Shown in pieces: positions 8,802 to 33,759 of a DNA stretch of 36,657 nt (position 1 is the first letter of the stretch; each line of letters opens with the position of its first letter). This DNA is from Gaiellales bacterium. GTDB lineage: Bacteria > Actinomycetota > Thermoleophilia > Gaiellales > JAICJC01. The stretch covers positions 1 to 36,657 of the forward strand of contig DASUHM010000041.1 of NCBI GenBank assembly GCA_036273515.1. Reading direction: 5' to 3'. The position numbers were made by a program, and so were the translations under genes. The notes under the pieces are model-generated. The model saw only the letters and a program-made list of their open reading frames with translations. It made no database searches and was not told the DNA's origin.

Positions 8802-8807
8802 TAGGGT
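8802..8807 (+). promoter_or_regulatory. -10 box TAGGGT of the ATPase gene (leaderless start)
   Basis: TAGGGT lies exactly six bases before the ATG at 8814, the spacing seen at many other starts here. It implies an internal promoter within the transporter operon. Confidence 0.55.
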
Positions 8808-8813
8808 GGTTTG

Positions 8814-9929
8814 ATGGCAGGCGAAGTCTCCCTGGTCGACTTGGTCAAGCGCTTCGGCGACGTCGCCGCGGTGGCCGGGATCAACGTCGACATGCCGAGC
8901 GGCGAGTTCTTCTCGATGCTGGGCCCGTCGGGGTGTGGGAAGACGACGACGCTGCGGATGATCGCGGGGTTCGAGCAGCCGACCGAGGGCAGGATCCTTC
9001 TGGACGGCACCGATATGGCCTACACGCCGCCGCACAAGCGGAACGTCAACACCGTCTTCCAGAACTACGCCCTGTTCCCGCATCTGAACGTGCACGACAA
9101 CGTCGCGTTCGGCCTGCGCCGGCAGAAGGTGGGAAAGCAGGAGCTTCGCCAGCGTGTCTCCGAGGCGCTCGAGCTGGTGCAGCTGAACGGGTTCGAGAAG
9201 CGAAAGCCGGGGCAGATGTCGGGCGGCCAGCAGCAGCGCGTCGCGCTGGCGCGCGCGCTCGTCCTGAAGCCGGCGGTGCTGCTTTTGGACGAGCCGCTGG
9301 GGGCGCTCGACGCGAAGCTGCGAAAGGCGCTCCAGATCGAGCTCAAGGCGTTGCAGCAGCAGGTCGGGATCACCTTCGTCTACGTCACCCACGACCAGGA
9401 AGAGGCGCTCACGATGAGCGACCGCATCGCGGTCATGGCCGACGGCCGGGTGGAGCAGATCGGCCCGCCCCAGGAGGTGTACGAGGCGCCCGAGACGGTG
9501 TTCGTGGCCGACTTCCTGGGCGTGTCCAACATGATGGACGCAGACGCCGTCGGCGGCGCCAACATCTGCCGTCTGATGGTCGGCGACTTCGAGCTCGACG
9601 CGCTCAAGGGAAAGACCGACGCCCGCGGCCCAAGCAAGGTCACCATCCGCCCCGAGCGCGTCCACCTGGAAGACCAGGACACGAGCGGCCCCAACCGCAT
9701 CCCCGGCATGGTCGAACGGCTCGTCTACCTCGGCAACAGTGTCCAGGTCATCACCCGCCTCGCCATCGGCACCACGATCCAGGTGCTCGTCCAGAACGCC
9801 GGCGAAGAGATCCCCTGGAAGCAGGGCACCCCCATCCAGGCCTACCTGCCACCCGAAGCGCTGCGCGTGCTCACCGACACCGGCGCCGCGCTCGCCAAGC
9901 TCGACGAAGAAGCGGTCGAGCCGGTCTAG
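8814..9929 (+). CDS. ABC transporter ATP-binding protein, PotA type
   Basis: The 371-residue ATPase powers the amine-type importer. The Walker A motif GPSGCGKTT spans residues 37-45. The signature MSGGQQQRVALARAL, Walker B VLLLDEPLGALD and the switch histidine in THDQEEA follow in order. A C-terminal regulatory TOBE-like domain occupies roughly residues 270-365, as in PotA and related importers. A TTG at 8811 would add one residue, but the ATG at 8814 lies six bases behind the box TAGGGT and is preferred. All catalytic residues are intact. The gene closes the transporter block; the enoyl-CoA hydratase gene begins four bases after its stop. Confidence 0.95.
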   Translation: MAGEVSLVDLVKRFGDVAAVAGINVDMPSGEFFSMLGPSGCGKTTTLRMIAGFEQPTEGRILLDGTDMAYTPPHKRNVNTVFQNYALFPHLNVHDNVAFGLRRQKVGKQELRQRVSEALELVQLNGFEKRKPGQMSGGQQQRVALARALVLKPAVLLLDEPLGALDAKLRKALQIELKALQQQVGITFVYVTHDQEEALTMSDRIAVMADGRVEQIGPPQEVYEAPETVFVADFLGVSNMMDADAVGGANICRLMVGDFELDALKGKTDARGPSKVTIRPERVHLEDQDTSGPNRIPGMVERLVYLGNSVQVITRLAIGTTIQVLVQNAGEEIPWKQGTPIQAYLPPEALRVLTDTGAALAKLDEEAVEPV

Positions 9930-9933
9930 CAGC

Positions 9934-10725
9934 GTGGCCGCGGCGCCGGACGAGGAGACCGTCTCCGTCCGCCGCGAGGGCGCGGTCGCAGTCGTCGAGC
10001 TGCGCCGTGAGCGCAAGCTGAACGCGCTCTCGACCGCGATGGAGGAGCGGCTGGACGCCGCCGTCGCGAGCGCGGACGTGCGCGAGAGCCGCTGCGTGGT
10101 CTTCGCCGGCGGCGCGCGGGCGTTCTCGGCGGGCGCCGACGTCACCGAGTTCCGCGACGCGGACGCCGCCTCGGTCGCGGCCTACTACGCCGGCACCGGC
10201 GGCGTGTACGAGCGGATCGCGCGGCTGCCGCAGCCGACGCTCGCGGCCGTCTCGGGGTACTGCCTCGGCGGCGGACTCGAGCTCGCCCTCGCCGCCGACA
10301 TCCGCATCGCCTGCCCCTCGGCCGACTTCGGCCTGCCCGAGGCGGGGCTCGGCATCATCCCGAGCTCCGGCGGCGTGCTGCGGCTGACCCGCGCGGTCGG
10401 CCCCGCCCGAGCGAAGGAGCTGATCCTGCGCGGGCGCCGGTTCGGCGCGGACGAGGCGCACGCGATCGGTCTCGTGGCCGAGGTGGCGGACGATGCGCGC
10501 GCCCGGGCGCTCGAGATCGCCGCCGAGCTGGCCGCGCGGCCGCCACTCGCCCTGCGGACCGCCAAGGCGACGATCGACCTGGCCGCGGAGTCGTCGCGCG
10601 AGGCGGCGGTCCTGATGGAGCAGCTGGCCTACGGCATGCTGGCCCAGACGCCGGAGGCACAGGACGCAGCAACCGCCTTCACCGAGAAGCGCGAATCGGG
10701 GTCAGACCCCGAACGGCGGCGGTGA
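9934..10725 (+). CDS. Enoyl-CoA hydratase/isomerase family protein
   Basis: The 263-residue crotonase-fold enzyme likely hydrates a trans-2-enoyl-CoA in beta-oxidation or side-chain degradation. The oxyanion-hole segments are FAGGARAFSAGAD and YCLGGGLELA, and both catalytic glutamates of true hydratases seem present (in GGGLELA and in FGLPEAGLG). The GTG start at 9934, four bases after the ATPase stop, gives the usual family N-terminus; the frame runs on upstream only as a shadow. The last ten residues (ESGSDPERRR) are encoded by the repeat GGGGTCAGACCCC and its flank, so the C-terminus has been extended or replaced by a repeat. The substrate is unknown. Confidence 0.92.
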   Translation: MAAAPDEETVSVRREGAVAVVELRRERKLNALSTAMEERLDAAVASADVRESRCVVFAGGARAFSAGADVTEFRDADAASVAAYYAGTGGVYERIARLPQPTLAAVSGYCLGGGLELALAADIRIACPSADFGLPEAGLGIIPSSGGVLRLTRAVGPARAKELILRGRRFGADEAHAIGLVAEVADDARARALEIAAELAARPPLALRTAKATIDLAAESSREAAVLMEQLAYGMLAQTPEAQDAATAFTEKRESGSDPERRR

Positions 10726-10761
10726 CAGTTCCGTGACGGAAACGTTCGGGGTCTGACCCCG
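10697..10761. terminator. Large hairpin of two inverted GGGGTCAGACCCC repeats between convergent genes
   Basis: The arm CGGGGTCAGACCCCGAACG (10697-10715) is repeated as its exact reverse complement at 10743-10761, with a 27-base spacer. Each arm is also palindromic by itself. The structure lies between two convergent genes and touches the stop of the beta-propeller gene at 10762, so a bidirectional terminator or REP-type pair is likely. No T-run follows. Confidence 0.75.
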
Positions 10762-12324
10762 TTACCGCGGGCGGCCGACCAGCACGCCGCCACCGTACAG
10801 GCCGACGTAGATGTGGCGATCGCCGGAGACCGCCAGGTCGCTCGGGTTGACGGCGGCCGACCGGAAGTAGTCGGTGGCGACGTCGATCCCGCCGACGAGC
10901 ATCCGGCGCGGGTTCGAGAGCGACAGTTCATAGCGGACGCCGCCACGGTTCCGGACGAGCGCCGGCGGGTGCAGGCGCGGCATGTCGTTCGGGGTCTGCT
11001 GGCAGTTCCCCCAGTGATCGAGCGTGTGGATGCCCTTCCAGTCGGTGTCCGTCGCCCAGGCCTCGCCCGCCCGCGGGCCGGCCTGCACCTGGATGATCTC
11101 GGAGCCGTCGAGGCCGTTCATCGCGGGTCGCCAGATCTTGCCGCCGTCGCGGGTGGCCATGATGCCGCTGCGGCCGGCCGAGTAGCAGATGTTCGGGTTG
11201 GCCGGGTCGACGGCGAGCTGGCTGACCGAGTAGCCGTGCTTGGCGAGGCCCGGCCAGGACGACGCCAGCCACCAGTTGCGGTTCGTGCCCAGCACCTGGT
11301 TGGAGATGTTGACGGGCTTCGTCGTCCAGACGAAGGTGCGGCCGGCGTTCGTCGACTTCGCGATGTAGCGGTGGTCGGTCATGCCGATCCCGTTGCCGAC
11401 CCAGAGGACGCCGCCGTGGCCGGAGACCGACGAGAGATGACAGCCGCTGAACGTCGCCGGCGCGAGCTGCGTCCACGCGCCAGTCGCGTTGACGCGGTAG
11501 AGCCCGAACGTGCCGCAGGCGGCGTAGACGACGCCGTCGACGACGGCGATGTCCTCGACCACGGCCGGCGCCCCTGGGACGGGCGCCACCGTGGCCGTGC
11601 CGCGAGGATTCGTGATCCGCCAGACCTGCGAGCCGGCCCGGTCGCTCGTGCGGAAGCTGGCCGCGAGCAGCGAGCCGTCAGGGCAGATGCAGAGGGCCGC
11701 CCAGGCCAGCTGCGGCGCGACGGCCGGGAGGCCGAGCGGCACGAGCGTGGCGCCGCCGTCCTGGGAGCGCATCAGGCCCTGGCGGGTCAGCATGTAGACG
11801 TACTCCTTGCCCGACGCGGAGTCATAGTCGACCGCGATCAGGTGGCCGACGGCGCGGGGGACGGCCCCGGCTGTGCCGTGGGGCAGGTAGGTCGAGAAGC
11901 CGACGTGCGTGTTGCGCCGCTCGAGCTTGAGCGAGCCGGGGGCGACGGCGCCGAGGTAGCCCTGGTTCGAGGCGTTCTTGAGAACGCCGATCCCGAAGTA
12001 GCGCAGGCCCGGCGTCTTGCGGGAGTACGCCACTGCGCGCCCGTAGATCGCGCCAATTGACGTGGCGCCGGTCATCGTCGGATACCAGAGGTCGCCGCCC
12101 GTACGGGTGGCGAACTCGCCCCAGACGTCGCCGGCCGCCGCCGCGCAGCCCGGGTTGAGCGGGTCGGTGGCCATCGCGTTGCAGTAGCCGCCGCCGTCCA
12201 TCGCGCCCTTGCTCCAGGTGTACGACGGGCGGGTCGCGGCGTGCACGACGACGCCGGCCAGCAGGTTGGTCTGTGCCACCATGCCGGCCGCGCCCACGAG
12301 CAGTCCCCGACGATTCAGCCTCAC
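10762..12324 (-). CDS. Secreted beta-propeller (BNR/sialidase-like repeat) protein
   Basis: The 520-residue protein starts with a twin-arginine-like signal (LNRRGLLVGAAG) followed by a hydrophobic stretch and an AxA-like cleavage region, so export is likely. The mature part holds several BNR-type turns (SQDGGATLV, STNAGRTFVW, TRDGGKIWRP), the repeats of a seven- or eight-bladed propeller as in exo-sialidases, xyloglucanases and Ycf48-like proteins. I cannot assign a substrate or catalytic residues. The GTG start at 12324 was chosen because it places the signal at the N-terminus; the frame is open further upstream, to 12624, only over the divergent dehydrogenase. A second, shorter BNR protein lies at 17417. 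Confidence 0.8.
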   Translation of the reverse strand: MRLNRRGLLVGAAGMVAQTNLLAGVVVHAATRPSYTWSKGAMDGGGYCNAMATDPLNPGCAAAAGDVWGEFATRTGGDLWYPTMTGATSIGAIYGRAVAYSRKTPGLRYFGIGVLKNASNQGYLGAVAPGSLKLERRNTHVGFSTYLPHGTAGAVPRAVGHLIAVDYDSASGKEYVYMLTRQGLMRSQDGGATLVPLGLPAVAPQLAWAALCICPDGSLLAASFRTSDRAGSQVWRITNPRGTATVAPVPGAPAVVEDIAVVDGVVYAACGTFGLYRVNATGAWTQLAPATFSGCHLSSVSGHGGVLWVGNGIGMTDHRYIAKSTNAGRTFVWTTKPVNISNQVLGTNRNWWLASSWPGLAKHGYSVSQLAVDPANPNICYSAGRSGIMATRDGGKIWRPAMNGLDGSEIIQVQAGPRAGEAWATDTDWKGIHTLDHWGNCQQTPNDMPRLHPPALVRNRGGVRYELSLSNPRRMLVGGIDVATDYFRSAAVNPSDLAVSGDRHIYVGLYGGGVLVGRPR

Positions 12325-12370
12325 ACCCCGGGGATCGGACGCGAGTGGTCGTTCTTTAGGCCGCCCTCGG

Positions 12371-12376
12371 TACGAT
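12371..12376 (+). promoter_or_regulatory. -10 box TACGAT of the hydroxyacid dehydrogenase gene
   Basis: TACGAT stands six bases before the ATG at 12383, predicting a leaderless transcript. It lies in the 58-bp divergent gap with the beta-propeller gene; I saw no clear -35 hexamer. Confidence 0.6.
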
Positions 12377-12382
12377 CGGGGG

Positions 12383-13240
12383 ATGCGCGGCCGGGTGCTG
12401 ATCTGCGACACCGAGTTCCCGATCGCGACGGCGCGCGAGATCCTGCCGGAGGCCGAGGCGGGGAGCGTCGCGGACGCCGGGCCGGGCATCGCCGCGCTGC
12501 TCGTCTCGCCCGAGTCGCCGGTGAGCGCCGCCGACATCGCCCGGGCCCCGGACCTGCGCCTGATCGCCACGGCGAGCGTCGGCACCGACCACATCGCGAT
12601 GGACGCCGCGCAGGCCCGCGGCATCGACGTGGTGAACGTGCCCGACTACTGCGTCGAGGAGGTCTCCGACCATGCGCTGGCGATGGTCGTTGCGCTGCGG
12701 CGCGGGCTGATCGCCGGCGACCGGTCGGTGCAGGCGGGAGCGTGGGACTGGACGGCGGTGGGCGCGATCGGCCTGCTGACAGGCACTCGTCTCGGGGTGA
12801 TCGGCTTCGGGCGGATCGGCCGCCGCCTGGCGGCGAGCGCGGAGGCGCTCGGCATGGAGGTGCGCCACCACGATCCGTTCGTCGCCGGCGGCATGGAGCT
12901 CGACGACCTGCTGGCGTGGGCCGACGCGATCTCGCTGCACAGCCCGCTGACCGAGGAGACGCGCGGCATGATCGACGAGCACCGTCTCGGACTGATGCGG
13001 CCGGGCGCGATCCTCGTGAACACGGCCCGCGGCGCCGTCGTCGACCGCGAGGCGCTGAAGGCGGCGACCCACGTGCAGGCCGCGTTCGACAACGTCTGGG
13101 AGCGGCCGCCGGGGGCCGACCTGCTCGGCCTGCCCCACCTGACGATGACGCCCTACGTCGGCTGGTACTCGGCCGGCCGGGAGCTCGAGCCGTACCTGCG
13201 CGCGGCGCAGGCGGTCGCCGAGGCGCTCAGCGCCCGATGA
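12383..13240 (+). CDS. D-isomer-specific 2-hydroxyacid dehydrogenase family protein with altered active site
   Basis: The 285-residue protein has the NAD-binding motif GFGRIG (residues 141-146) and the substrate-binding arginine in NTARG (R216), both typical of the D-2-hydroxyacid dehydrogenase/CtBP family. The usual catalytic histidine of the TPH motif is replaced by tyrosine: residues 256-258 read TPY, within TMTPYVGWYS. The glutamate region (normally DVFExEP) reads DNVWERPP. Catalysis may therefore be changed or lost; a regulatory or binding role is possible. It is short for the family (about 310-330). The start at 12383 follows a -10 box by six bases. It converges with the acyl-CoA dehydrogenase gene, overlapping it by 14 bases. 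Confidence 0.88.
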   Translation: MRGRVLICDTEFPIATAREILPEAEAGSVADAGPGIAALLVSPESPVSAADIARAPDLRLIATASVGTDHIAMDAAQARGIDVVNVPDYCVEEVSDHALAMVVALRRGLIAGDRSVQAGAWDWTAVGAIGLLTGTRLGVIGFGRIGRRLAASAEALGMEVRHHDPFVAGGMELDDLLAWADAISLHSPLTEETRGMIDEHRLGLMRPGAILVNTARGAVVDREALKAATHVQAAFDNVWERPPGADLLGLPHLTMTPYVGWYSAGRELEPYLRAAQAVAEALSAR

Positions 13241-14393
13241 GGCTGCGGGAGATGATGAGGCGCTGGATGTCGGACGTGCCCTCCTCGATCTCCTCGAGCT
13301 TGGCGTCGCGCATCCACTTCTCGACCGGGTACTCGCGCGAGTAGCCCCACCCGCCGAGCGTCTGCACGGCCGCCCAGGTGCACCAGGTGGCGGCCTCGGA
13401 CGCGAACAGCTTCGCCATCGCAGCCTCGGCGGGCACGTGCCTGCCGGCGTCCATCGAGCGGGCGGCGCGGTGGGTGAGCAGGCGGGCGGCGTCGATCCGC
13501 GTGGCCATGTCGGCGAGCCGGAACCCGACGGCCTGGTGGTGGCCGATCGGCTTGCCGAAGGCCGTGCGCTCGCGGGCGTACTCGGTGGCGTACTCGAGCG
13601 CCGCCCGGGCGATGCCGATCGCGCCGGCGGCGAGATGGATGCGTGACTCGTCGAAGGTGTGCATCAGGCTGTAGAAGCCCTTGCCCTCCTCGCCGAGCAG
13701 CCTGTCGGCGGGCAGGTCGACGTCCTGCAGGAAGACCTCGGTCGAGACGATCGCGCGCTGGCCGTGCTTTCGCATCGGCTCGCCGAACGAGACTCCGGCG
13801 TCGCCCTTCTCGACCACGAACGCGGTCACGCCGCGCGCGCCGGTGCCCGGCGCGACGGTCGCGAAGATGACGTAGTACTCGGCCAGGCCGCCGTTCGAAA
13901 TCCAGGTCTTCTGGCCCTGGAGCCGGTAGCCGGGGCCCGTGCGGGTCGCGGCCGTGGTCATCGCCGCGGCGTCGGAGCCCACGCCGGGCTCGGTCGACGC
14001 GAGCGCGGTCAGCGGCGGCTTCGGGCCGCACAGCGGGCGCAGCCAGCGCTCGCGCTGCTCGGGCGTCCCCACCTCGATGAGCGGCCGGGCGAAGAAGCCC
14101 GCCGACGTGATCAGGTTGCCGATTCCGGCGCAGCCCCAGTTCAGCTCCTCCTGGACGATGCAGCCCGTCAGGACGTCGCCGATGCCGCCGCCGCCGACCC
14201 CCTCGGGGAGCATGAACGACGTCAGGCCGACGTCCGCCGCCCTGTAGACGACCTCGAGCGGCGAGACGACGTCGGACTCGTCCACCTCGGCCGCGATCGG
14301 CCGGATCTCGGCCCGTGCGAACTCGCGCGCCAGCGCCTGGATCTCGCGCTGATCGTCGGTCAGATCGGTGGTGTTCGCCGCCGGGGTCGCCAT
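13227..14393 (-). CDS. Acyl-CoA dehydrogenase
   Basis: The 388-residue flavoenzyme carries out the first alpha,beta-desaturation of an acyl-CoA, passing electrons to an electron-transfer flavoprotein. The FAD/substrate segment ALASTEPGVGSDAAA and the C-terminal EEGTSDIQR, with E371 at the position of the catalytic base, are intact. Length is normal. The start at 14393 lies ten bases behind a possible -10 box TACGCT (14404-14409); an upstream ATG at 14423 sits only two bases from another box and is less likely. With the ligase and hydratase it supplies most steps of a beta-oxidation route, but it is not in an operon with them. Chain-length preference cannot be read from the sequence. Confidence 0.93.
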   Translation of the reverse strand: MATPAANTTDLTDDQREIQALAREFARAEIRPIAAEVDESDVVSPLEVVYRAADVGLTSFMLPEGVGGGGIGDVLTGCIVQEELNWGCAGIGNLITSAGFFARPLIEVGTPEQRERWLRPLCGPKPPLTALASTEPGVGSDAAAMTTAATRTGPGYRLQGQKTWISNGGLAEYYVIFATVAPGTGARGVTAFVVEKGDAGVSFGEPMRKHGQRAIVSTEVFLQDVDLPADRLLGEEGKGFYSLMHTFDESRIHLAAGAIGIARAALEYATEYARERTAFGKPIGHHQAVGFRLADMATRIDAARLLTHRAARSMDAGRHVPAEAAMAKLFASEAATWCTWAAVQTLGGWGYSREYPVEKWMRDAKLEEIEEGTSDIQRLIISRSLIGR

Positions 14394-14424
14394 GGGCCGC
14401 GACAGCGTATCCGAGGGGACCATC

Positions 14425-14430
14425 TAGACT
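14425..14430 (+). promoter_or_regulatory. -10 box TAGACT of tRNA-Ser
   Basis: TAGACT ends 13 bases before the mature tRNA 5' end. The same hexamer stands at the same kind of distance before tRNA-Arg, which supports it as a promoter element. Confidence 0.5.
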
Positions 14431-14443
14431 ACGCCGGCCTCCC

Positions 14444-14532
14444 GGAGGGGTGGCAGAGTGGTTGAATGCGGCGGTCTCGAAAACCGTTACTGGGCGTTAG
14501 TTCAGTCGAGGGTTCGAATCCCTCCCCCTCCG
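14444..14532 (+). tRNA. tRNA-Ser, anticodon CGA
   Basis: The acceptor arm GGAGGGG pairs with CCCCTCC, with discriminator G at 14532. The anticodon loop CTCGAAA sits between CGGT and ACCG, giving anticodon CGA, which reads UCG. A long variable arm marks a class II tRNA, as expected for serine, and the T arm contains TTCGAAT. The CCA end is not encoded. Length is 89 bases. Confidence 0.96.
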
Positions 14533-14586
14533 CTTACCCGCCTCCGCCCGCGACCGTCCGTCGTTCGGCGTGCCGTCGGGCGCGGC

Positions 14587-14718
14587 TCACATGCGGTGGG
14601 CAACTGACCAGCTGTTCCAGATCCCGTCCATGAGCGCCGCAGTAACGCCGCCCGCCGCGCCCATCAGCACACCCGCGACGACCGCACCCCACCAGGTGTC
14701 CGGCACCCTCCTCCACAT
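14587..14718 (-). CDS. 43-residue membrane miniprotein
   Basis: The short frame codes for one hydrophobic, glycine-zipper-like helix (WWGAVVAGVLMGAAGGVTAAL) between tryptophan-rich ends, so a single-pass membrane peptide is likely. I know no family. Two facts support that it is real: 37 of 43 third codon positions are G or C, and the ATG lies exactly six bases behind a -10 box TATGCT, the pattern of other genes in this window. It stands alone between tRNA-Ser and the VOC gene, which is divergent from it. A role in membrane stress or as a toxin-like peptide would be speculation. Confidence 0.55.
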   Translation of the reverse strand: MWRRVPDTWWGAVVAGVLMGAAGGVTAALMDGIWNSWSVAHRM

Positions 14719-14724
14719 GCATCC

Positions 14725-14730
14725 AGCATA
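14725..14730 (-). promoter_or_regulatory. -10 box TATGCT of the miniprotein gene
   Basis: Read on the minus strand, TATGCT is followed by six bases and then the ATG at 14718, predicting a leaderless message. Confidence 0.5.
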
Positions 14731-14787
14731 CGGGGCCGGGACAGGCTCCGTGCGCTCGATCGACCGCCGGTCTGGCAAGATTGCGGC

Positions 14788-15141
14788 GTGGAACGCGTCC
14801 TCGGAATCGGCGGGTACTTCCTGCGGGCGGCCGACCCGGCCGCCCTCGGCGTCTGGTATCGCGAGTGCCTGGGCCTCGACGCCGACGAGAACGGCGTCTG
14901 GCGGCAGGAGGACGGCATGACGGTGTTCGCGACGTTCGACCACGACACCGAGTACTTCGGCTCCCGCACCCAGCAGACCATGCTCAACGTCCGCGTCCGC
15001 GACCTCGATGCGATGCTCGCGCAGCTGCGCGACAGGGGCGCGGACGTCGACCCCGAGACCCAGGAGATGGAGGGCGTCGGCCGGTTCGGCTGGGTCACCG
15101 ATCCGGAGGGCAACCGGATCGAGCTGTGGCAGCCCGGCTGA
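14788..15141 (+). CDS. VOC family (glyoxalase/bleomycin-resistance fold) protein
   Basis: The 117-residue protein is one vicinal-oxygen-chelate module pair: an N-terminal half with GYFLRAADPAALGVWYRE and a C-terminal half ending WVTDPEGNRIELWQP. The DPEGN...ELWQ ending carries the metal-ligand glutamate typical of the fold. Members act as lyases, dioxygenases or resistance proteins, and the substrate cannot be inferred here. The GTG start at 14788 is the first codon giving the family N-terminus; a weak box CAAGAT lies six bases before it. The stop codon sits in the loop of a perfect hairpin shared with the convergent membrane-protein gene. Confidence 0.88.
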   Translation: MERVLGIGGYFLRAADPAALGVWYRECLGLDADENGVWRQEDGMTVFATFDHDTEYFGSRTQQTMLNVRVRDLDAMLAQLRDRGADVDPETQEMEGVGRFGWVTDPEGNRIELWQPG

Positions 15142-15149
15142 GCCGGGCT
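15131..15149. terminator. Bidirectional hairpin terminator with the stop codon in its loop
   Basis: AGCCCGGC (15131-15138) and GCCGGGCT (15142-15149) form a perfect 8-bp stem around TGA, which is the VOC stop codon. The minus-strand gene on the other side also ends at 15149. No T-run follows. Confidence 0.65.
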
Positions 15150-16937: not shown

Positions 16938-16943
16938 ATCCTA
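16938..16943 (-). promoter_or_regulatory. -10 box TAGGAT of the PRC-like gene
   Basis: On the minus strand TAGGAT is seven bases from the ATG at 16930. Its first three bases are also the TAG stop of the upstream cupin gene. Confidence 0.5.
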
Positions 16944-17366: not shown

Positions 17367-17372
17367 ACTCTA
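17367..17372 (-). promoter_or_regulatory. -10 box TAGAGT of the cupin gene
   Basis: TAGAGT on the minus strand is six bases from the ATG at 17360. The divergent box TATGAT (17404-17409) lies only 31 bp away. Confidence 0.55.
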
Positions 17373-17403: not shown

Positions 17404-17409
17404 TATGAT
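17404..17409 (+). promoter_or_regulatory. -10 box TATGAT of the secreted propeller gene
   Basis: TATGAT is seven bases before the ATG at 17417, which favours that start over the ATG at 17405 inside the box. Confidence 0.55.
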
Positions 17410-19935: not shown

Positions 19936-19941
19936 ACCCTA
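19936..19941 (-). promoter_or_regulatory. -10 box TAGGGT of the GNAT gene
   Basis: On the minus strand TAGGGT stands six bases before the ATG at 19929, matching the spacing at other genes here. Confidence 0.55.
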
Positions 19942-19972: not shown

Positions 19973-19978
19973 TAGATT
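19973..19978 (+). promoter_or_regulatory. -10 box TAGATT of the CBS/MgtE-N gene
   Basis: TAGATT is nine bases before the ATG at 19988, giving a leader of only two or three bases. Confidence 0.45.
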
Positions 19979-22587: not shown

Positions 22588-22609
22588 CCATCGGAGCGCC
22601 GTTCCTGTA
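22558..22609 (+). repeat. 26-bp tandem duplication at the Nramp gene end
   Basis: The stretch at 22558-22583 is repeated with few changes at 22584-22609. Read in its own frame, the second copy again codes VTIGAPFL followed by TAG at 22608, so it probably keeps the ancestral stop. The duplication shifts the frame and creates the present stop at 22585-22587. Confidence 0.7.
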
Positions 22610-22613
22610 GGTT
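22608..22613 (+). promoter_or_regulatory. -10 box TAGGTT of the hydrolase gene
   Basis: TAGGTT is seven bases before the GTG at 22621 and overlaps the relic stop codon of the duplicated Nramp end. Confidence 0.5.
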
Positions 22614-24792: not shown

Positions 24793-24842
24793 CCCTCGCA
24801 GTATGCGGCCGATCGGTTGGCGTTACACGTGCGCCGGTCACA

Positions 24843-25811: not shown

Positions 25812-25817
25812 AGCGTA
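25812..25817 (-). promoter_or_regulatory. -10 box TACGCT of the EamA gene
   Basis: TACGCT on the minus strand is seven bases from the GTG at 25804 and decides that start. Confidence 0.5.
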
Positions 25818-25868: not shown

Positions 25869-25919
25869 GAACGGGCAAGGGCCCGGAAAGACCGCCTCCC
25901 TAACGTGCTTCGAGTACGA

Positions 25920-25940: not shown

Positions 25941-25959
25941 CAAGCGACTCGGAGGGAGC

Positions 25960-27042: not shown

Positions 27043-27053
27043 CGACACCCCTT

Positions 27054-27080
27054 CCGGGCGCCGGACCGGCCGGCGCCCGG
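27054..27080 (+). terminator. GC-rich hairpin terminator
   Basis: CCGGGCGCCGG (27054-27064) and CCGGCGCCCGG (27070-27080) form a perfect 11-bp stem with a 5-base loop just after the lactonase-like gene. No T-run follows, as is common for terminators in such genomes. Confidence 0.75.
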
Positions 27081-27105
27081 GGGGAACCACGCGAGTTTCG
27101 AGGCC

Positions 27106-28260
27106 ATGCCGTGGCAGGACAGGGACGGCCGCCTCGTGGGGACCGCGTTCGTGCTCCACGCGACGCTCGTCGGCACGTGGGCGGGCCGGGTGCCGGCGAT
27201 CAAGCATGCGCTCGGCCTCTCCGACACCGCGCTCGGCGCAGCCCTGTTCGGGATGGCGGCCGGGACGTTGCTCGGCAGCTGGTGGGGCGGCCGCCTGGCC
27301 CGGCGGCTGGGACCTGCGACCGTCGTCCGCGGCGGCATCCCGGCGATGGCCGCGGCCCTGGTCGCGTCGGCGTTCGCGGCCGACCTGGCCGCGCTGTTCG
27401 CCGCGCTCGCCTGCTTCGGCATCCTCGGCGCGATCGTCGACGTCGCGATGAACACGATCGCCGTCGCGGTCGAGCGAGACCGCCGGCGGCCGCTCATGTC
27501 CGGCTTCCACGGCGCCTGGAGCGTCGGCCTGCTGCTGGGTGCGCTCGGCGCCAGCGCCGCGGCCGCTGCCGGCGTCGGCCCCGAACGCCACTTCGCGGCG
27601 GTCGCCGTCATCGTCGCCGGCGTGGCGGTGACCGTCCTGGCCGCCCTCCCCCACCCGGCGCCGCCCGTCCGGGCGGCCGGGCAGGGGCAACCGGCCTGGT
27701 CGGCCGAGCTGGTCGTCCTCGGCGCGATCGCCTTCTGCAGCTTCTTCGCCGAGGGCGCGGCGGCCGACTGGAGCGCCGTCTACCTGCACGACCGGGCGGG
27801 GGCAGGAGCGGCGCTCGCCGCCGCGGCCTTCGCCGGCTTCTCGGTCGCGATGGCCGCGTCGCGGCTGACGGGCGACCGGATCGTCACGGTGGTCGGGCCG
27901 GTCGCCCTCGCCCGGCGGGCAGGGCTCACCGCCGCGGCCGGGCTCGGGCTGGCCCTCGCCGTGCCGGTGCCCGGCGCGGGCATCGCCGGCTTCGCGCTCA
28001 TGGGAGCCGGGCTGGCGCCGATCGTCCCGCTCGTCCTGAGCGCCGCGGGGGCGGTCGCCCACGGCGTCGAGGAGACACTCGCGCGCGTCCTTCTGATCGC
28101 GTACACGGGATCGATCGTCGGCCCGGCCGCGATCGGGTTTGCGGCCGGCCGGGTGGAGCTGCGGGCGGCGCTCCTGATCCCGCTCGCGCTGATCGTCTGC
28201 ATCGTCCTCGGCGCCGGCCGGATCCAGCCGGCCCAGGGCGGCGAGCTTGCAAGAACCTGA
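27106..28260 (+). CDS. Major facilitator superfamily transporter
   Basis: The 384-residue carrier has about twelve hydrophobic helices. Its N-terminal part (FVLHATLVGTWAGRVPAIKHALGLSDTALGAALFGMAAGTLLG) is like that of the FucP/YbjJ-type MFS group of small-molecule carriers. The loop-2/3 motif GGRLARRLGP lies at residues 57-66. The substrate is unknown. The ATG at 27106 has a -10-like GAGTTT seven bases upstream but no ribosome site. Its last codons (GELART) lie within the inverted third copy of the GGTTCTTGCAAG repeat, so the repeat defines the protein end. It is followed by the response regulator gene on the same strand, which has its own -10 box. Confidence 0.9.
   Translation: MPWQDRDGRLVGTAFVLHATLVGTWAGRVPAIKHALGLSDTALGAALFGMAAGTLLGSWWGGRLARRLGPATVVRGGIPAMAAALVASAFAADLAALFAALACFGILGAIVDVAMNTIAVAVERDRRRPLMSGFHGAWSVGLLLGALGASAAAAAGVGPERHFAAVAVIVAGVAVTVLAALPHPAPPVRAAGQGQPAWSAELVVLGAIAFCSFFAEGAAADWSAVYLHDRAGAGAALAAAAFAGFSVAMAASRLTGDRIVTVVGPVALARRAGLTAAAGLGLALAVPVPGAGIAGFALMGAGLAPIVPLVLSAAGAVAHGVEETLARVLLIAYTGSIVGPAAIGFAAGRVELRAALLIPLALIVCIVLGAGRIQPAQGGELART
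28246..28257 (-). repeat. GGTTCTTGCAAG element, copy 3 (inverted)
   Basis: The core is read on the minus strand and forms the last sense codons of the MFS gene before its TGA stop. With its flank it matches copy 1 at 18 of 19 bases. Confidence 0.6.
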
Positions 28261-28288
28261 ACACCCTTCCGGCCCGCCCTGACACCGG

Positions 28289-28294
28289 TACGCT
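28289..28294 (+). promoter_or_regulatory. -10 box TACGCT of the two-component operon
   Basis: TACGCT lies six bases before the ATG at 28301, predicting a leaderless operon message. Confidence 0.55.
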
Positions 28295-28300
28295 GGTGGC

Positions 28301-28990
28301 ATGGCGTCGACGGCACCATCACCGCGTGTCCTCGTCGTCGACGACGAGCCGGTGGTGCGCGACGTGCTCACCCGCTACCTCACGCACGAGGGCTTCGAGG
28401 TGGACGCGGCCGCCGACGGCCACGCCGCGCTGACCGCGATCGAGGCGCAGCCCCCGAACGTGATCGTGCTCGACCTGATGCTGCCGAAGCTGAGCGGCCT
28501 CGAGCTCCTGCGGCTCGTCCGGCTCGAGAGCAGCGTCCCGGTGATCATCCTGTCTGCGAAGGTGAGCGAGCGCGAGCGGATCGCGGGCCTCGAGCTCGGC
28601 GCCGACGACTACGTGACGAAGCCGTACTCGCCCGGCGAGGTGGTGGCGCGCGTGCGCGCCGTCCTGCGCCGCGGCGGCGGCGAGCCGCGGGCACCGCTCG
28701 AGTTCGGCGAGCTCGTGGTCGACCCCTTCAGACGCGAGGTCAGGCGTGGCGGCGAGGTCGTCCGCACGACCCGCAAGGAGTTCGACCTGCTCCTGCGGCT
28801 GGCGTCGAGCCCGGGGCGGGTCTACACGCGCGCCGAGCTCGTCGAGTCGGTGTGGGGCTACGTGTGGAGCGGCGACACCGAGACCGTGACGGTGCACATC
28901 CGGCGGCTGCGGGCGAAGATCGAGGACGACCCATCGCGGCCGCGCCGGCTGGTGACCGTGCACGGCGTCGGATACCGGTTCGACGCATGA
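28301..28990 (+). CDS. OmpR-family response regulator
   Basis: The 229-residue regulator has a receiver domain with the acidic pair D14-D15, phosphoacceptor D58 (VIVLDLMLPK), the switch S85 and K107 (DDYVTKPYSP). A winged-helix DNA-binding domain follows from about residue 130 (TRKEFDLLLRLASSPGRVYTRAEL, then VTVHIRRLRAKIEDDP and GVGYRFDA). It is phosphorylated by the kinase encoded next, whose ATG overlaps its stop (ATGA). Targets cannot be read from the sequence; the cupin and ABC exporter genes downstream are candidates by position only. Start choice: ATG six bases after a -10 box. Confidence 0.95.
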   Translation: MASTAPSPRVLVVDDEPVVRDVLTRYLTHEGFEVDAAADGHAALTAIEAQPPNVIVLDLMLPKLSGLELLRLVRLESSVPVIILSAKVSERERIAGLELGADDYVTKPYSPGEVVARVRAVLRRGGGEPRAPLEFGELVVDPFRREVRRGGEVVRTTRKEFDLLLRLASSPGRVYTRAELVESVWGYVWSGDTETVTVHIRRLRAKIEDDPSRPRRLVTVHGVGYRFDA

Positions 28991-30105
28991 GCGAGACGCT
29001 TCGCCTGGTCGCGCTGCTCGGGCCGATCGCGCTGGCGACGCTCGTCACATCCCTCCTCGCCCGGCGGCTCGCGACCCGGGCCGGGCTCGCGTACACCCTG
29101 ATCGCGATCGCCGTCATCGCCTCGCTCGTGACCGTCGTCGACCTGCTCGTGCTGAGCCACTTCATGCTGATCTCCCCCGACAACCCGGCCGAGCTCGTGT
29201 CGGTCGCGCTCTACTCCGTGACTGCGGGGGTGGCGGCGGCGCTGATCGTCGGGCGGTCGAACACCCGCGCGCTCGCCCGCCTCGTCGCAACCGCCCGGTC
29301 GCTTGGCGAGAACCGGCTCGACGCGCGCGCCGGCGAGCTGCGGGCAGCGCCCGAGCTGCGGCTGCTGGGCGAGACGCTCGACGCGGCAGCGGCCCGGCTC
29401 GAGTCGGGCATCGAGGCCGAGCGCGCGGTCGAGGCGCAGCGGCGCGACCTCATGACCTCGCTCTCGCACGACCTGCGCACGCCGATCGCGAACCTGCGGG
29501 CGATGGTCGAGGCGATCGACGACGGCATCGTCCGCGATCCCGAGACCGTCGCGCGGTACACGGCCGAGATGCGCCGGTCGGTAATGGCGCTCGTGACGAT
29601 GGTCGACGATCTCTTCGAGCTCGCCCAGCTGGACGCGGCGGAGTTCGCCCGCGACGCCCGCTCGACCTCGCTCGCCGAGGTGGTCGAAGGGGCGCTCGAC
29701 CTGTGCCGGCCCGAGGCGGCCGAGAAGGGCATCCGCATCGGCGTCGACCTCGCCGGCGCCGGGGCCAGCCAGTGCTCGCCGAAGCTCGCCCGGGTCGTCC
29801 ACTCGCTGCTCGACAACGCCGTCCGCTACACGCCGGCGGACGGATGGGTGACGCTTCGTGCCCGGGCGGGCGCCGACGGCATCAGGCTGTCGGTGGAGGA
29901 CAGCGGCCCGGGGATCGCGGCCGACGAGCTGCCGCGGGTGTTCGAGGCGTTCTGGCGTGCCGATCCGGCCCGCTCGAGCCGGGGCTCGGGGCTCGGGCTC
30001 ACGCTCGCGAAGCGCATCGTCGAGGCGCTGGGCGGCCGCATCGAGGCGTCGAGCACGCCGGAGCGCGGCTCGCGATTCGACGTCTCGGTGCCGACGCGGG
30101 CGTAG
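28987..30105 (+). CDS. Sensor histidine kinase
   Basis: The 372-residue kinase has two clear N-terminal membrane stretches (around residues 6-24 and 36-58) and a third hydrophobic segment near 72-88, with hardly any extracellular loop. It may thus sense within the membrane or by a partner protein. A HAMP-like linker leads to the dimerisation domain with H161 (SLSHDLRTPIANL). The ATPase domain follows with N box LLDNAVRYTP, G1 box DSGPGIA and G2 box SRGSGLGLTLAKRIV, all intact. It is coupled to the response regulator by a four-base overlap. The nearby cupin gene begins behind its own -10 box, so the operon probably ends here. Confidence 0.95.
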   Translation: MSETLRLVALLGPIALATLVTSLLARRLATRAGLAYTLIAIAVIASLVTVVDLLVLSHFMLISPDNPAELVSVALYSVTAGVAAALIVGRSNTRALARLVATARSLGENRLDARAGELRAAPELRLLGETLDAAAARLESGIEAERAVEAQRRDLMTSLSHDLRTPIANLRAMVEAIDDGIVRDPETVARYTAEMRRSVMALVTMVDDLFELAQLDAAEFARDARSTSLAEVVEGALDLCRPEAAEKGIRIGVDLAGAGASQCSPKLARVVHSLLDNAVRYTPADGWVTLRARAGADGIRLSVEDSGPGIAADELPRVFEAFWRADPARSSRGSGLGLTLAKRIVEALGGRIEASSTPERGSRFDVSVPTRA

Positions 30106-30127
30106 CAGTCCCTGCGGGAGACCTGGC

Positions 30128-30133
30128 TAGGCT
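30128..30133 (+). promoter_or_regulatory. -10 box TAGGCT of the cupin/ABC operon
   Basis: TAGGCT lies six bases before the GTG at 30140, the standard leaderless spacing here. Confidence 0.55.
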
Positions 30134-30139
30134 GCCGCC

Positions 30140-30535
30140 GTGGGCTTCCGCGCAATCTCTCCCGGCGAGCCGGACTGGATCACCCGGCCGCGCGAGCCCG
30201 GCGAGCCGGCCCGGCACGTCGCCGAGTTGAGCGAGCTCGCGGGCTTCGCCCACTCGCGCGCGAACGTCTGGCGCTACGAGCCCGGCGCCCGCGGCCGCCG
30301 CCACCGCCACCCCACGCACGAGGAGACGTTCGTCGTCCTGGAGGGGACGCTCTCGATGTACCTGGGCGACGACCCGGAGCGGTGCGACATGCAGGCGGGC
30401 GGCATCGTCCATGTCGAGGCGGGAACGGCGCTCCAGGCGGCGAACCACGGCGCCGAGGAGCTGCTCGTCTACGTGTACGGGGCGCCGCCCGAGACCGAGG
30501 ACGAGCGCGTCGAGCTGCTCGAGCCGGCCGTCTAG
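30140..30535 (+). CDS. Cupin domain protein
   Basis: The 131-residue protein has a complete cupin core: motif 1 RRHRHPTHEETFVVLEGTL, with three histidines and a glutamate for a metal, and motif 2 around GGIVHVEAGTALQAANHGAEEL. It is followed after nine bases by the ABC exporter ATPase gene, so the three genes probably form one operon. A ligand-sensing or detoxifying role next to an exporter would fit, but no reaction can be given. The GTG start is supported by the -10 box. The C-terminus is rich in acidic residues. Confidence 0.88.
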   Translation: MGFRAISPGEPDWITRPREPGEPARHVAELSELAGFAHSRANVWRYEPGARGRRHRHPTHEETFVVLEGTLSMYLGDDPERCDMQAGGIVHVEAGTALQAANHGAEELLVYVYGAPPETEDERVELLEPAV

Positions 30536-30544
30536 CAGCCGCCC

Positions 30545-31384
30545 GTGACGGTCGCCTTCGCCGCCCAGGATCTGCGCAAGCGCTTCGGCCGCACCGTCGC
30601 GCTCGACGGCGTCAGCCTGCACGTCGACGCGGGCGAGCTGGTCGGGCTGCTCGGCCCGAACGGCGCCGGCAAGTCGACGCTCGTCAAGATCGGCTGCGGC
30701 CTCGTGCGCCCGACCGCCGGTACGGCGACGGTGTGCGGCGCGCCGGCCGGGTCGCCCCCGGCGCGGGCCAGCCTCGGCTACCTGGCCGAGCTCTTCCGCT
30801 TCCCCGGCTGGATGACTGCCGACGAGCTGCTGCGCATGCACCAGGGCCTGACCCGGTCGGACGGCGGCGCTGCCGAGCGCGGGCGCCTGCTCGAGCTGGT
30901 TGGCCTTGCGGACGTCGCCGAACGCCGGGTCGAGACGATGTCGAAGGGCATGCAGCAGCGGCTCGGGATCGCCCAGGCGCTCGTTGCCGGCCCGCCCATG
31001 CTCGTGCTCGACGAGCCGACGAGCGCGCTCGACCCTGCCGGCCGGCGCACGGTGCGCGACATGCTCGAGGAGCTGCGATCAGGAGGCACCGCCGTCCTCC
31101 TGAACTCGCATCTCCTGAGCGAGATCGAGCTCGTGTGCGACCGGGTCGTGATCATCAACCGCGGCCGCGTGGTCGCGCAGGGCACGCCCGAGCAGCTGAC
31201 CGCGGCGGGCGGTGTCGAGATCGAGACCGGCTCGGGCGCGCGCCGGTATGACGCTACGCGCGAGCAGATCCCCGCGCTCGTCGCCGAGCTCGTGGCTGCC
31301 GGCGAGCAGGTGTACGAGGTGCGGGCGACGCGCTCGACGCTCGAGGAGGCCTACCTGGAGGCGGTCGAGGGGGAGATGGGATGA
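30545..31384 (+). CDS. ABC transporter ATP-binding protein (exporter type)
   Basis: The 279-residue ATPase has Walker A GPNGAGKST (residues 37-45) and Walker B LVLDEPTSALDP. Its signature is MSKGMQQRLGIAQAL, in which SGGQ is changed to SKGMQ, a variant common in ABC-2 type exporters. The switch histidine is in NSHLLSE. A C-terminal extension of about 70 residues is typical of exporters of antibiotics or other natural products. Its stop overlaps the start of the permease gene (ATGA). The GTG start at 30545 follows the cupin stop by nine bases. The cargo is unknown. Confidence 0.94.
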   Translation: MTVAFAAQDLRKRFGRTVALDGVSLHVDAGELVGLLGPNGAGKSTLVKIGCGLVRPTAGTATVCGAPAGSPPARASLGYLAELFRFPGWMTADELLRMHQGLTRSDGGAAERGRLLELVGLADVAERRVETMSKGMQQRLGIAQALVAGPPMLVLDEPTSALDPAGRRTVRDMLEELRSGGTAVLLNSHLLSEIELVCDRVVIINRGRVVAQGTPEQLTAAGGVEIETGSGARRYDATREQIPALVAELVAAGEQVYEVRATRSTLEEAYLEAVEGEMG

Positions 31385-32241
31385 ACGGCGCCGGCGTGAT
31401 CGTGCGGGTGACGCTGCGGGAGTGCCTGCGCCGCCGCGTGCTGGTCGTCGTCGCGCTGCTCACCGTCGCGTTCCTGGCGCTCTACTCCGTCGCCACGCAC
31501 TTCGCGTTCTCGGCCGTGAACACCGCGAGGGTGCACCAGAACGGGACGCTCGTCGACGCGAACGCCCTCGCCGGCGCCACGCTGCTCGGCCTGGCGATGT
31601 TCGCGACGCTCTTCCTCGGGGCGGTGCTCGCGGTGTTCCTGACCTTCAACGTCGTTCGCGGCGACGCCGAGCAGGGCCTGCTCCAGCCGATCGTGGTGCG
31701 GCCCATCGGGCGGACGGTCTTCGTCGCCGCCCGCCTCGGCGCGGCCTGCGGCCTGTGTGCGTCGTACACCGCGCTCGTGTACGGCGCGAGCGTCGTCATC
31801 ACCGGGCTCGAGGGCGGCTGGTGGCCCGACAGCATCGTCATGCCCGGCGTGGCGCTCGCGGCCGCCGTCTGCATCCTCGCGGCGATCTCGCTGCTGGGCT
31901 CGGTCTACCTGTCGACCATCGCCAACGGGATCGCCGTGCTCATGATCTACGGCGCCGGGCTGGTCTCGGGGCTGCTCGGGCAGATCGGCTACTCGCTCCC
32001 CTCGGAGCGGCTGCAGCAGATCGGCAAGGTCGCCTCCTGGGCGCTGCCGTTCGACGCGCTCTACCAGGCCGGGCTGCATGCCCTCACCGCCGACACGAGC
32101 GGTTTCACCGGCGTGATCGTGCACCTCGGCCCGTTCGGCGGCGCCCAGGGCGCCGGGCCGCTGCTCGGCGTGTGGGCGGTCGGGTACGCGACGGTCGTGC
32201 TGGCCGCGACGGCGGTCGGGCTGAAGCGCCGCGACCTCTAG
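31381..32241 (+). CDS. ABC-2 type transporter permease
   Basis: The 286-residue membrane partner of the preceding ATPase has about six helices, starting at an amphipathic N-terminus (IVRVTLRECLRRRVLVVVALLTVAFLALYS) and including ATLFLGAVLAVFLTFNVV and AVCILAAISLLGSVYLS. This matches ABC-2 or NatB-like permeases. Extracytoplasmic loops are short. Its start overlaps the ATPase stop by four bases, so a stoichiometric complex is expected. It ends four bases into the convergent hydrolase gene. The transported compound is not evident. Confidence 0.92.
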   Translation: MNGAGVIVRVTLRECLRRRVLVVVALLTVAFLALYSVATHFAFSAVNTARVHQNGTLVDANALAGATLLGLAMFATLFLGAVLAVFLTFNVVRGDAEQGLLQPIVVRPIGRTVFVAARLGAACGLCASYTALVYGASVVITGLEGGWWPDSIVMPGVALAAAVCILAAISLLGSVYLSTIANGIAVLMIYGAGLVSGLLGQIGYSLPSERLQQIGKVASWALPFDALYQAGLHALTADTSGFTGVIVHLGPFGGAQGAGPLLGVWAVGYATVVLAATAVGLKRRDL

Positions 32242-33155
32242 TCGTGTTGGGCGAGCCAGGCGCCCACGACCTGCATGAACCGGTCGCGCTCCTCGACATG
32301 CGGCATGTGCGACGAGTCCTCGAACACGACCCACTCCGAGCCGGCGATGCCCTGCTGGAGCGTCTCCTGGAGCGCCGGCGTGGCCTCGTCGTGGCGGCCG
32401 GAGACGAGCAGCGTCGGCACCTGGATCTCGCCGAGCCGGTCCTTCGACTGCCAGTCGCGGATCGAGCCGACGACGTGGAACTCGCTCGGCCCGTTCATCG
32501 TGTGGTAGACGGTCGGGTCGCGCTCGATCCACTCGAAGGCCGCAATCACCTCGGGCGGCATCGGGTCGAGCCGGCAGACGTGGCGCCCGTAGAAGACGTG
32601 GCAGGCCTCCATGTAGGCCGGGTCGTCGGTGGTGCCCGCCTCCTCGTGGCGGCGCAGGGTCGCCTCGACCTCGGGCGGCAGGTCGGCCCGCAGCCGGTTG
32701 GCCTCGGAGACGAAGTCGGGGAACGACGCCGCCGTGTCGGCGAGGACGAGCGACCGCAGTCCGGCCGGCCGCGTGAACGCGTACTCCTGAGCGAGGAAGC
32801 CGCCCCACGACTGGCCGAGCACGTGGTGGCGGTCGGCGATCCCGAGGGCCGAGACGAGGCTGTGCAGCTCGCGGACGAAGAGGTCGACCGTCCAGAAGTC
32901 GGCGCCGCGCTCCGGGTAGTGCCTGCTACGGCCGTTGCCGAGCTGGTCGTAGTGGACGACGCCGCGGCCGGAGGCGAGGTCGGCCATCGACAGCAGGTAG
33001 TCGTGCGTCGCGCCCGGCCCGCCGTGCAGGAGCACGAGCGGCGCGCCGCCGGACTCGAGGTCGCCCGTGACCCGGAACCAGGTCTCGGCGACCTCGCCGT
33101 TGCCGAGCTCGAACTGGAGTGTGCCCTCGCGGGTCGGGTCAGCTGCCTGGGCCAC
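32238..33155 (-). CDS. Proline iminopeptidase-family alpha/beta hydrolase
   Basis: The 305-residue enzyme has oxyanion motif HGGPG (residues 44-48), YDQLGNGRS near residue 70 and nucleophile elbow GQSWGG with S116. The acid is probably the aspartate in SGRHDEATP and the base the histidine in DSSHMPH. The whole pattern, including a helical cap with MEACHVFYGRHVCRLD, is that of proline iminopeptidases and tricorn-interacting aminopeptidases, which release N-terminal proline or similar residues from peptides and amides. The GTG start at 33155 follows a -10 box TAGGAT by six bases. It is divergent from the PQ-loop-like gene, and the two -10 boxes overlap. Confidence 0.92.
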   Translation of the reverse strand: MAQAADPTREGTLQFELGNGEVAETWFRVTGDLESGGAPLVLLHGGPGATHDYLLSMADLASGRGVVHYDQLGNGRSRHYPERGADFWTVDLFVRELHSLVSALGIADRHHVLGQSWGGFLAQEYAFTRPAGLRSLVLADTAASFPDFVSEANRLRADLPPEVEATLRRHEEAGTTDDPAYMEACHVFYGRHVCRLDPMPPEVIAAFEWIERDPTVYHTMNGPSEFHVVGSIRDWQSKDRLGEIQVPTLLVSGRHDEATPALQETLQQGIAGSEWVVFEDSSHMPHVEERDRFMQVVGAWLAQHD

Positions 33156-33161
33156 GACGCG

Positions 33162-33171
33162 ATCCTACACT
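33162..33171. promoter_or_regulatory. Two overlapping divergent -10 boxes, TAGGAT and TACACT
   Basis: On the minus strand TAGGAT (33162-33167) stands six bases before the GTG at 33155. On the plus strand TACACT (33166-33171) stands six bases before the ATG at 33178. They share the two bases TA, so only one polymerase can open this site at a time. Confidence 0.6.
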
Positions 33172-33177
33172 TGCCGC

Positions 33178-33759
33178 ATGCTCTGGCTGTTCGGCATCGT
33201 CTCCGGCCTCCTCCAGGCGCTGGCCTGCGTGCCGTACGTGCGGGACATCCTGGCTGGTAAGACGAAGCCGCACCGGGGAACGTGGGCGATCTGGTTCACG
33301 CTGTCGCTGATCGTCCTGCTCTCGCAGCGTGCCGACGGCGGCAGGTGGAGCCTGCTCATGGCCGTGTCGCAGCTGCTCGGGACGTGCCTGATCCTGCTGC
33401 TCTCGATCCGCCGAGGCGTGGGAGGCTCGAGCCGGCTCGACATCCTGCTGCTCGCGATCGCCGCCCTCGGCGTGGTCGGCTGGTACCTGGCCGGCGACCC
33501 GACCATCGCCACGCTGTGCGTCGTGATCTCCGACCTGGTCGCGGTCGTGATGATGATGCCGAAGACGTACGCCGACCCGTACTCCGAGACGCTCTCGGCC
33601 TACGTGATGAGCGCACTGAGCGGCGCCTGCGCGCTCGTCGCAGTCGGGTCGCTGGACTTCGGGCTCATCGTCTACCCGGCGTACATCGTCTGCGCCGACC
33701 TGGCGGTCGCCGCGATCGTGCTCACGCAGCGCCCGCAGATCCCGACCGCGGCCGACTAG
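33178..33759 (+). CDS. PQ-loop/SWEET-like membrane protein
   Basis: The 193-residue protein has about six membrane helices. The first part (LQALACVPYVRDILAGKTKPHRGTWAIWF) resembles PQ-loop and semi-SWEET proteins, where a helix with a proline is followed by a charged loop and a tryptophan-rich helix. A similar segment occurs near residue 125 (MMMPKTYADPYSETLSAYV), suggesting an internal repeat. Small carriers of this kind move sugars or cationic amino acids; the substrate is unknown and the assignment is tentative. The ATG follows a -10 box TACACT by six bases, which supports the start. tRNA-Arg lies downstream. Confidence 0.7.
   Translation: MLWLFGIVSGLLQALACVPYVRDILAGKTKPHRGTWAIWFTLSLIVLLSQRADGGRWSLLMAVSQLLGTCLILLLSIRRGVGGSSRLDILLLAIAALGVVGWYLAGDPTIATLCVVISDLVAVVMMMPKTYADPYSETLSAYVMSALSGACALVAVGSLDFGLIVYPAYIVCADLAVAAIVLTQRPQIPTAAD

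Follow-up and report, generated by a model that had tools for sequence, protein, structure and literature searches.

Putative leaderless promoters in a Gaiellales genome, some apparently shared by divergent genes

Why do so many genes in one stretch of bacterial DNA carry the hexamer TANNNT at almost the same short distance before the start codon? The question is raised by contig DASUHM010000041.1 of a Gaiellales bacterium (the window: 36,657 bases, one contig of a 4.07-Mb, 98-contig assembly), in which a sequence-only reading had listed 13 starts with such a box six or seven bases away and two more with a box at nine or ten, and had proposed that transcription begins at the start codon. The 13 boxes are all exact, with a spacer (the bases separating the TANNNT box from ATG/GTG) of 6 in nine cases and 7 in four, and the two further boxes stand at 9 (19988+) and 10 (14393-); starts are named here by position and strand. 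Judged from sequence, these boxes are very probably -10 elements that give leaderless mRNAs, with a subset of divergent gene pairs, 33155-/33178+ among them, using one shared element.

Spacing of TANNNT boxes from start codons

We counted boxes in an own-genome sample of 836,657 bases (the window and 800 kb from eight other contigs), in which a purpose-written gene finder, picking starts by coding score and start codon only, called 789 genes. Start codons throughout are computed, and 72% GC DNA makes start calling hard; only 184 of the 789 genes had a start that was unambiguous by coding score. Upstream of 784 coding-score starts, spacers of 0 to 5 held 0, 1, 1, 1, 1 and 1 boxes (five in total), spacers of 6 to 11 held 48, 30, 20, 18, 10 and 7, and offsets beyond these 1-7 each; 11,565 internal in-frame ATG/GTG codons, taken as a control, gave 0-7 per offset. 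Leaderless transcription predicts this cliff at 6, because a start codon fewer than six bases from the box would precede the transcription start. The unambiguous starts behave alike, with boxes at spacers 6 and 7 in 18 and 10 of 184 and none at 0-5, and spacers of 6-10 were learned for the box by an expectation-maximization (EM) mixture model of start signals whose seeds were TANNNT and GGAGG and whose spacers were flat at the outset.

Over plausible starts, those within 5 nats of the best coding-score start, a box at 6-10 occurred in 199 of 789 genes, compared with 16-32 in each of four windows at control offsets, and in 117 of 274 divergent genes, against 11-19; after subtraction of a mid-range control this amounts to ~22% of all genes and ~38% of divergent genes. 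The excess suspected from the window is thereby confirmed over 837 kb of the same genome. It also holds against shuffled upstream sequence within the window, where a box at spacer 6-7 precedes 12 of 36 genes (500 shuffles: mean 0.3, maximum 3) and one at 6-10 precedes 14 of 36 (mean 0.9, maximum 4). These counts, with controls that are low and flat, refute an origin by chance from base composition, a view whose sole support is the background level, 1-7 boxes at each offset, and to which we give next to no credence. We did not use the leaderless share of 39% that the EM model returned: it classed nearly every gene (309 TA and 474 Shine-Dalgarno, SD, of 789), and its specificity was poor, shuffled upstream DNA giving 151 TA calls against 297 real ones at a threshold of 0.5 and 30 against 171 at 0.9. 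Because shuffled DNA still yielded many TA calls, exact-match counts with offset controls were kept instead.

The boxes have the anatomy and distribution of promoter elements. Little stands out in 179 aligned promoters (exact box and EM call above 0.8) except the box itself, the start codon, and weak preferences within and beside the box. A -35 element is almost absent, in keeping with the remark of the sequence-only reading that none was consistent: matches to TTGACA at four or more of six positions rise slightly at spacing 17, to 11 of 179 promoters, against 2-7 at each other spacing from 10 to 29. Among 18 alignable orthologous promoters selected in the same way, four of them deriving from two shared elements, the defined bases were kept at T1 in 16 of 18, A2 in 17 of 18 and T6 in 17 of 18, against 43 of 54 positions at N3-5, 90 of 129 in the spacer and 228 of 360 in the upstream 20 bases; the misses at T1, A2 and T6 trace to 8814, where the relative has no box, and to 17360, where a gapped alignment hides the box of the relative. 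With coding-only starts, a box at 6-10 precedes 20 of 264 closely spaced same-strand genes, compared with 69 of 274 divergent genes. Boxes also stand 11-26 bases upstream of six of eight predicted tRNA/tmRNA genes (50 bases examined), and the two predictions that have none are of unusual length.

Two other accounts of the boxes have to be set against these observations. They could belong to ordinary leadered promoters, with the true start codons further downstream behind SD sequences of their own; the scarcity of unambiguous starts in this DNA speaks for such an error. Leaders should then vary in length, yet boxes are nearly gone below 6 and peak at 6-7, also at unambiguous starts, and one boxed start, that of an AcpS protein, agrees with the profile of its family from residue 2 on; we consider this account very unlikely. 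Alternatively, TANNNT could be an A/T-rich ribosome-binding element, as its position tied to the start codon and the existence of non-SD ribosome-binding sites in some bacteria (PMC9581028) would allow. A translation signal is hard to reconcile with boxes ahead of tRNA/tmRNA genes, with their rarity inside operons and with their symmetry in divergent pairs, and we hold it to be less probable still.

We therefore favour leaderless transcription, while noting several findings that count against it. Coding-only starts differ from the listed ones for 4 of the 13 genes, lying nearby for 16930-, 17417+ and 28301+ and six codons upstream for 25804-. At least four SD bases also precede 12 of the 40 boxed unambiguous starts (20% at internal codons, n=11,630). 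Relatives do not share the 8814 box, the orthologue at L044 lacking it and that at L152 having AGGAG upstream in place of a box, and 14718- is doubtful as a leaderless small-protein gene. As we picture it, the boxes would be -10 elements (TANNNT) of housekeeping-type promoters, from which RNA polymerase would initiate ~7 bases 3' of the box, at the first base of the start codon; the resulting mRNAs would be leaderless or carry few leader bases, and would be translated without an SD sequence.

Relatives show the same signal. In two further members of the order, G013 and G089, a box precedes 140 of 464 genes (controls 9-15) and 114 of 398 (controls 4-13), with the same cliff; restricted to divergent genes, the counts are 68 of 128 (controls 2-8) and 58 of 116 (controls 3-7). 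The figure is 25 of 57 in G002, a genome of the same genus with a syntenic contig (controls 0-4), and 21 of 92, 21 of 103 and 11 of 88 in single genomes representing three further families of the class (controls 1-5). Leaderless expression is an ordinary mode for actinobacteria, probably used here by about a quarter of genes and most often by those heading transcription units. Boxes at 6-11 mark 40 of the 184 unambiguous starts, with an SD-like match at 82 of the rest and neither at 62; among the 73 of these starts that head units, the numbers are 25, 26 and 22. In published work leaderless TA-led genes average 19.2% in Actinobacteria (2.3-29.8) and 39.4% in Deinococcus-Thermus (Zheng et al., 2011; PMC3160421); their TANNNT lies ~10-12 bp before the start, essentially as here, and our analysis differs in method and in adding an uncultured lineage. 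In Mycobacterium tuberculosis 22% of 2,524 expressed genes are leaderless, and TANNNT precedes 73% of primary start sites with no conserved -35 (Cortes et al., 2013; PMC3898074), and the StartLink paper cites, for 21.6% of bacterial species, a leaderless share of up to 40% of transcripts (PMC9581028).

The leaderless interpretation made from the window alone is thus well supported, by the spacing cliff, the rarity of boxes inside operons, the tRNA boxes and the T/A/T conservation, but its claims of scale are not. That boxes are the main pattern is not supported, with only 12-14 of 36 window genes and ~25% of all genes at genome scale carrying one. A striking density is not supported either, since ~25% of genes and, across three genomes, ~43-53% of divergent ones lie within published actinobacterial figures. 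The window is not clearly different from the rest of the sample (14 of 36 against 185 of 753 genes with a box at 6-10; Fisher p 0.07).

Boxes shared by divergent genes

The sequence-only reading listed both 33155- and 33178+ and overlooked that their boxes overlap. Between GTG 33155- and ATG 33178+, which are 22 bp apart, lies the element ATCCTACACT (33162..33171, both strands), composed of the minus-strand box TAGGAT (33162-33167) and the plus-strand box TACACT (33166-33171), with the TA at 33166-33167 common to both; all 10 bases are identical in G002. The arrangement recurs. Among 137 divergent pairs of the own-genome sample no gap measures 6-21 bp; seven pairs overlap or lie closer than that, and each of the seven with a gap of 22-27 bp is boxed on both sides with the identical shared-TA overlap, 9 of their 14 starts being the exact coding-only starts. 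One of these seven pairs joins acpS, whose product aligns with the AcpS family profile from residue 2, to a gene of the metallo-beta-lactamase fold, and its element recurs in G001 and G002.

Pooling the own sample with G013 and G089 gave 259 divergent pairs, 69 of them with an exact box on both sides. Twelve of the 69 have their boxes at offset 4, sharing TA (own 7, G089 5, G013 0), and five at offset -1, sharing the whole of TANNNTA (own 0, G089 4, G013 1); one lies at offset 6, none at other offsets to 10, 31 at 11-50 and 20 beyond. Together the two shared geometries account for 17 of 69 doubly boxed pairs, whereas the remaining offsets to 10 account for a single pair. By reasoning from the hexamer, only 4 and -1 let overlapping boxes have defined bases in common without a clash.

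Could such pairs be an artefact, one leaderless gene facing a false opposite start, given that TA is self-complementary? Sharing requires four A/T bases rather than six, which makes chance second boxes commoner at these offsets. Where the neighbour is divergent, however, 25 of 249 boxed genes of the three genomes have an opposite start at the shared-TA place, and where it lies on the same strand only 3 of 220 do; at the TANNNTA place the corresponding counts are 10 of 249 and 3 of 220.

Across the order sample (101 genomes, our own included), shared TA with spacers 6 and 6 occurred at 209 sites against 34 in a backward control and in 78 genomes, and TANNNTA at 173 sites against 40 and in 84 genomes; for the own genome alone these comparisons read 5 to 0 and 1 to 0. 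The 18-bp geometry is nearly as common order-wide as the 23-bp geometry of the window (173 vs 209), though in the own genome it stands at 1 vs 5. Because one-sided leaderless enrichment inflates counts over the backward control, we added wrong-spacer, gene-level and same-strand-neighbour controls. Setting one start at spacer 3 gave 64 and 29 sites over both orientations, or 32 and 14.5 per orientation. At gene level we checked 30 of the 209 shared-TA loci, 30 of the 64 wrong-spacer loci and 20 of the 173 TANNNTA loci (hand-picked, one per genome), dropping 4 of 30 and 2 of 30 of the first two sets for short flanks. Called gene starts on both sides were seen at 10 of the 26 remaining shared-TA loci and at 13 of the 20 TANNNTA loci, compared with 1 of 28 at the wrong spacer, calls that apply the codon model of the own genome to other genomes; an earlier version of the check had found 10 of 30 shared-TA and 12 of 20 TANNNTA loci divergent.

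Not everything here favours sharing. A called start appears on one side only at 13 of 26 shared-TA loci, as the artefact would have it, and on neither side at 3; the earlier version of the check put 4 of its 30 sites within called genes; G013 has one shared pair among 20; and orthologous sites are common to related genomes, so that the order-wide counts are not independent. The collapse of two-sided loci at the wrong spacer and the agreement of most starts in the own seven pairs with coding-only starts nevertheless make an artefact unlikely. Sharing by two real genes remains our preferred explanation, restricted to the order because the excess over the backward control fades outside it: in the phylum beyond the class (261 genomes) the 18-bp geometry shows no excess (343 vs 414) and the 23-bp geometry a small one (535 vs 374), and in the class beyond the order (30 genomes) the counts are 21 vs 20 and 24 vs 8. 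A TANNNTA between two GTG starts 17 bp apart is unchanged across two genera (L231-L234; L235, L240, L242), with small spacer changes.

In the divergent leaderless subset, to which 33155-/33178+ would belong, we suggest that one near-symmetric element is read both ways, one TA step (starts at least 22 bp apart) or the whole of TANNNTA (starts at least 17 bp apart) serving both strands and engaged by one polymerase at a time. The order-specific form of this proposal goes further, and we consider it rather more probable than the opposite: a symmetric -10 element of 7 or 10 bp, between starts 17-27 bp apart, would constitute the whole intergenic region, act as the promoter of two genes and fix the 5' ends of both, so that both messages would be leaderless and their transcription mutually exclusive. 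Such elements look several-fold enriched in the order and are at or little above the backward control in the rest of the phylum.

Boxes and neighbouring features in the window

Credible genes, called by coding score, stand behind 12 of the 13 listed boxes; of these genes 11 match a Pfam family or have a close G002 relative, and 16930- can likewise be aligned with G002. The longest SD-like match ahead of the 13 starts is 4 bases. On the plus strand, TAGGGT (8802..8807) lies 6 bases before ATG 8814 of a PotA-like ABC ATPase, TACGAT (12371..12376) 6 before ATG 12383 of a 2-hydroxyacid dehydrogenase (TAGGAT in G002), TATGAT (17404..17409) 7 before ATG 17417 of a BNR-repeat protein (same box in G002) and TAGATT (19973..19978) 9 before ATG 19988 of an MgtE-N/CBS protein (TACATT in G002). 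Further along, TAGGTT (22608..22613) precedes GTG 22621 of an alpha/beta hydrolase by 7 bases (TAACTT and an ATG start in G002), TACGCT (28289..28294) precedes ATG 28301 of a response regulator by 6 (TACATT in G002), and TAGGCT (30128..30133) precedes GTG 30140 of a cupin by 6 (same box in G002). The ABC ATPase start is 40 bp past a same-strand gene, and a change of signal, from SD to leaderless or the reverse, may have occurred there.

Minus-strand boxes are of the same kind. TACGCT (14404..14409) lies 10 bases before ATG 14393 of an acyl-CoA dehydrogenase (TAGGCT in G002), a protein whose closest relative, on JAICJC010000064.1, is 96% identical; the relatives are metagenome-assembled Thermoleophilia. 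TAGGAT (16938..16943), identical in G002, lies 7 before ATG 16930; TAGAGT (17367..17372) 6 before ATG 17360 of a cupin, where by eye, in a gapped alignment, G002 has TACGCT 6 before GTG; TAGGGT (19936..19941) 6 before ATG 19929 of a GNAT acetyltransferase (TAGGCT in G002); and TACGCT (25812..25817) 7 before GTG 25804 of an EamA transporter (same box in G002). An imperfect box, CATACT (24800..24805), is kept in G002 7 bases before ATG 24792 of a molybdopterin oxidoreductase. TATGCT (14725..14730) lies 6 before ATG 14718 of a 43-aa open reading frame (14587-14718), a doubtful gene that the gene finder did not call and that had no match at E <= 0.01 in the 100 other genomes of the order sample; it has a hydrophobic middle and a perfect box upstream.

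Both tRNA genes are preceded, as the sequence-only reading had observed, by TAGACT on the plus strand, at 14425..14430 (13 bases before tRNA-Ser, 14444-14533) and at 33791..33796 (11 bases before tRNA-Arg, 33808-33880), each kept in G002. The predicted anticodon of the tRNA-Arg is GCG; its counterpart in most bacteria has ACG. Just 3' of this gene, at 34170-36198, lie a Prim-Pol domain protein (PF09250) and a protein with no Pfam match, and GC falls to 0.658 over 34001-36000, a lower-GC stretch beside a tRNA gene as in an integrated mobile element.

Known bidirectional promoters and the meaning of shared boxes

The promoter geometry itself is already known, as are overlapping -10 elements with one leaderless partner. 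In the bidirectional promoters with a symmetric -10 element described by Warman and colleagues, divergent start sites are mostly 18 bp apart, with 10 and 23 also common (PMC12825309; PMC10268837). Taken from start-codon spacing, spacers of 6 and 6 would make TANNNTA the 18-bp and shared TA the 23-bp form, and the opposed boxes with common key bases, at 33162-33171 and in 17 of 69 pairs, are alike. The difference is that both products here are predicted to be leaderless protein genes, with the element filling the start-to-start gap.

In the csoR-cueA divergon of Bradyrhizobium liaoningense the -10 elements overlap and polymerase competition has been proposed; the csoR start site is the A of its ATG, by rapid amplification of cDNA ends (RACE), and the cueA leader is 42 nt long (PMC5057107). 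That divergon is a single locus in another phylum with one leaderless partner, whereas both partners are predicted to be leaderless here. For M. tuberculosis a figure legend calls close divergent promoters common and presents one divergent pair with both mRNAs leaderless (PMC3898074); there the 5' ends were measured, where ours are predicted starts, and the passages of that paper that we consulted describe no shared box at a fixed offset. In the open-licence literature that we searched, we found no description of two leaderless partners as a recurrent genomic architecture. One paper there that touches on both leaderless genes and Thermoleophilia enters the class in an anti-SD table; none turned up for leaderless genes in Gaiella or for overlapping divergent promoters in actinobacteria. 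The shared-box pairs look like the point at which known bidirectional promoters join two-sided leaderlessness, enriched in one order.

We suggest that leaderlessness supplies a base-exact ruler, such that the box could be used to correct gene starts in genomes of this kind. Shared-box pairs turn the purpose of bidirectional promoters into a question of conserved gene architecture that can be counted, and suggest a lower size limit for a divergent intergenic region with two promoters. They also predict polymerase competition between named pairs, such as acpS and its metallo-beta-lactamase-fold neighbour.

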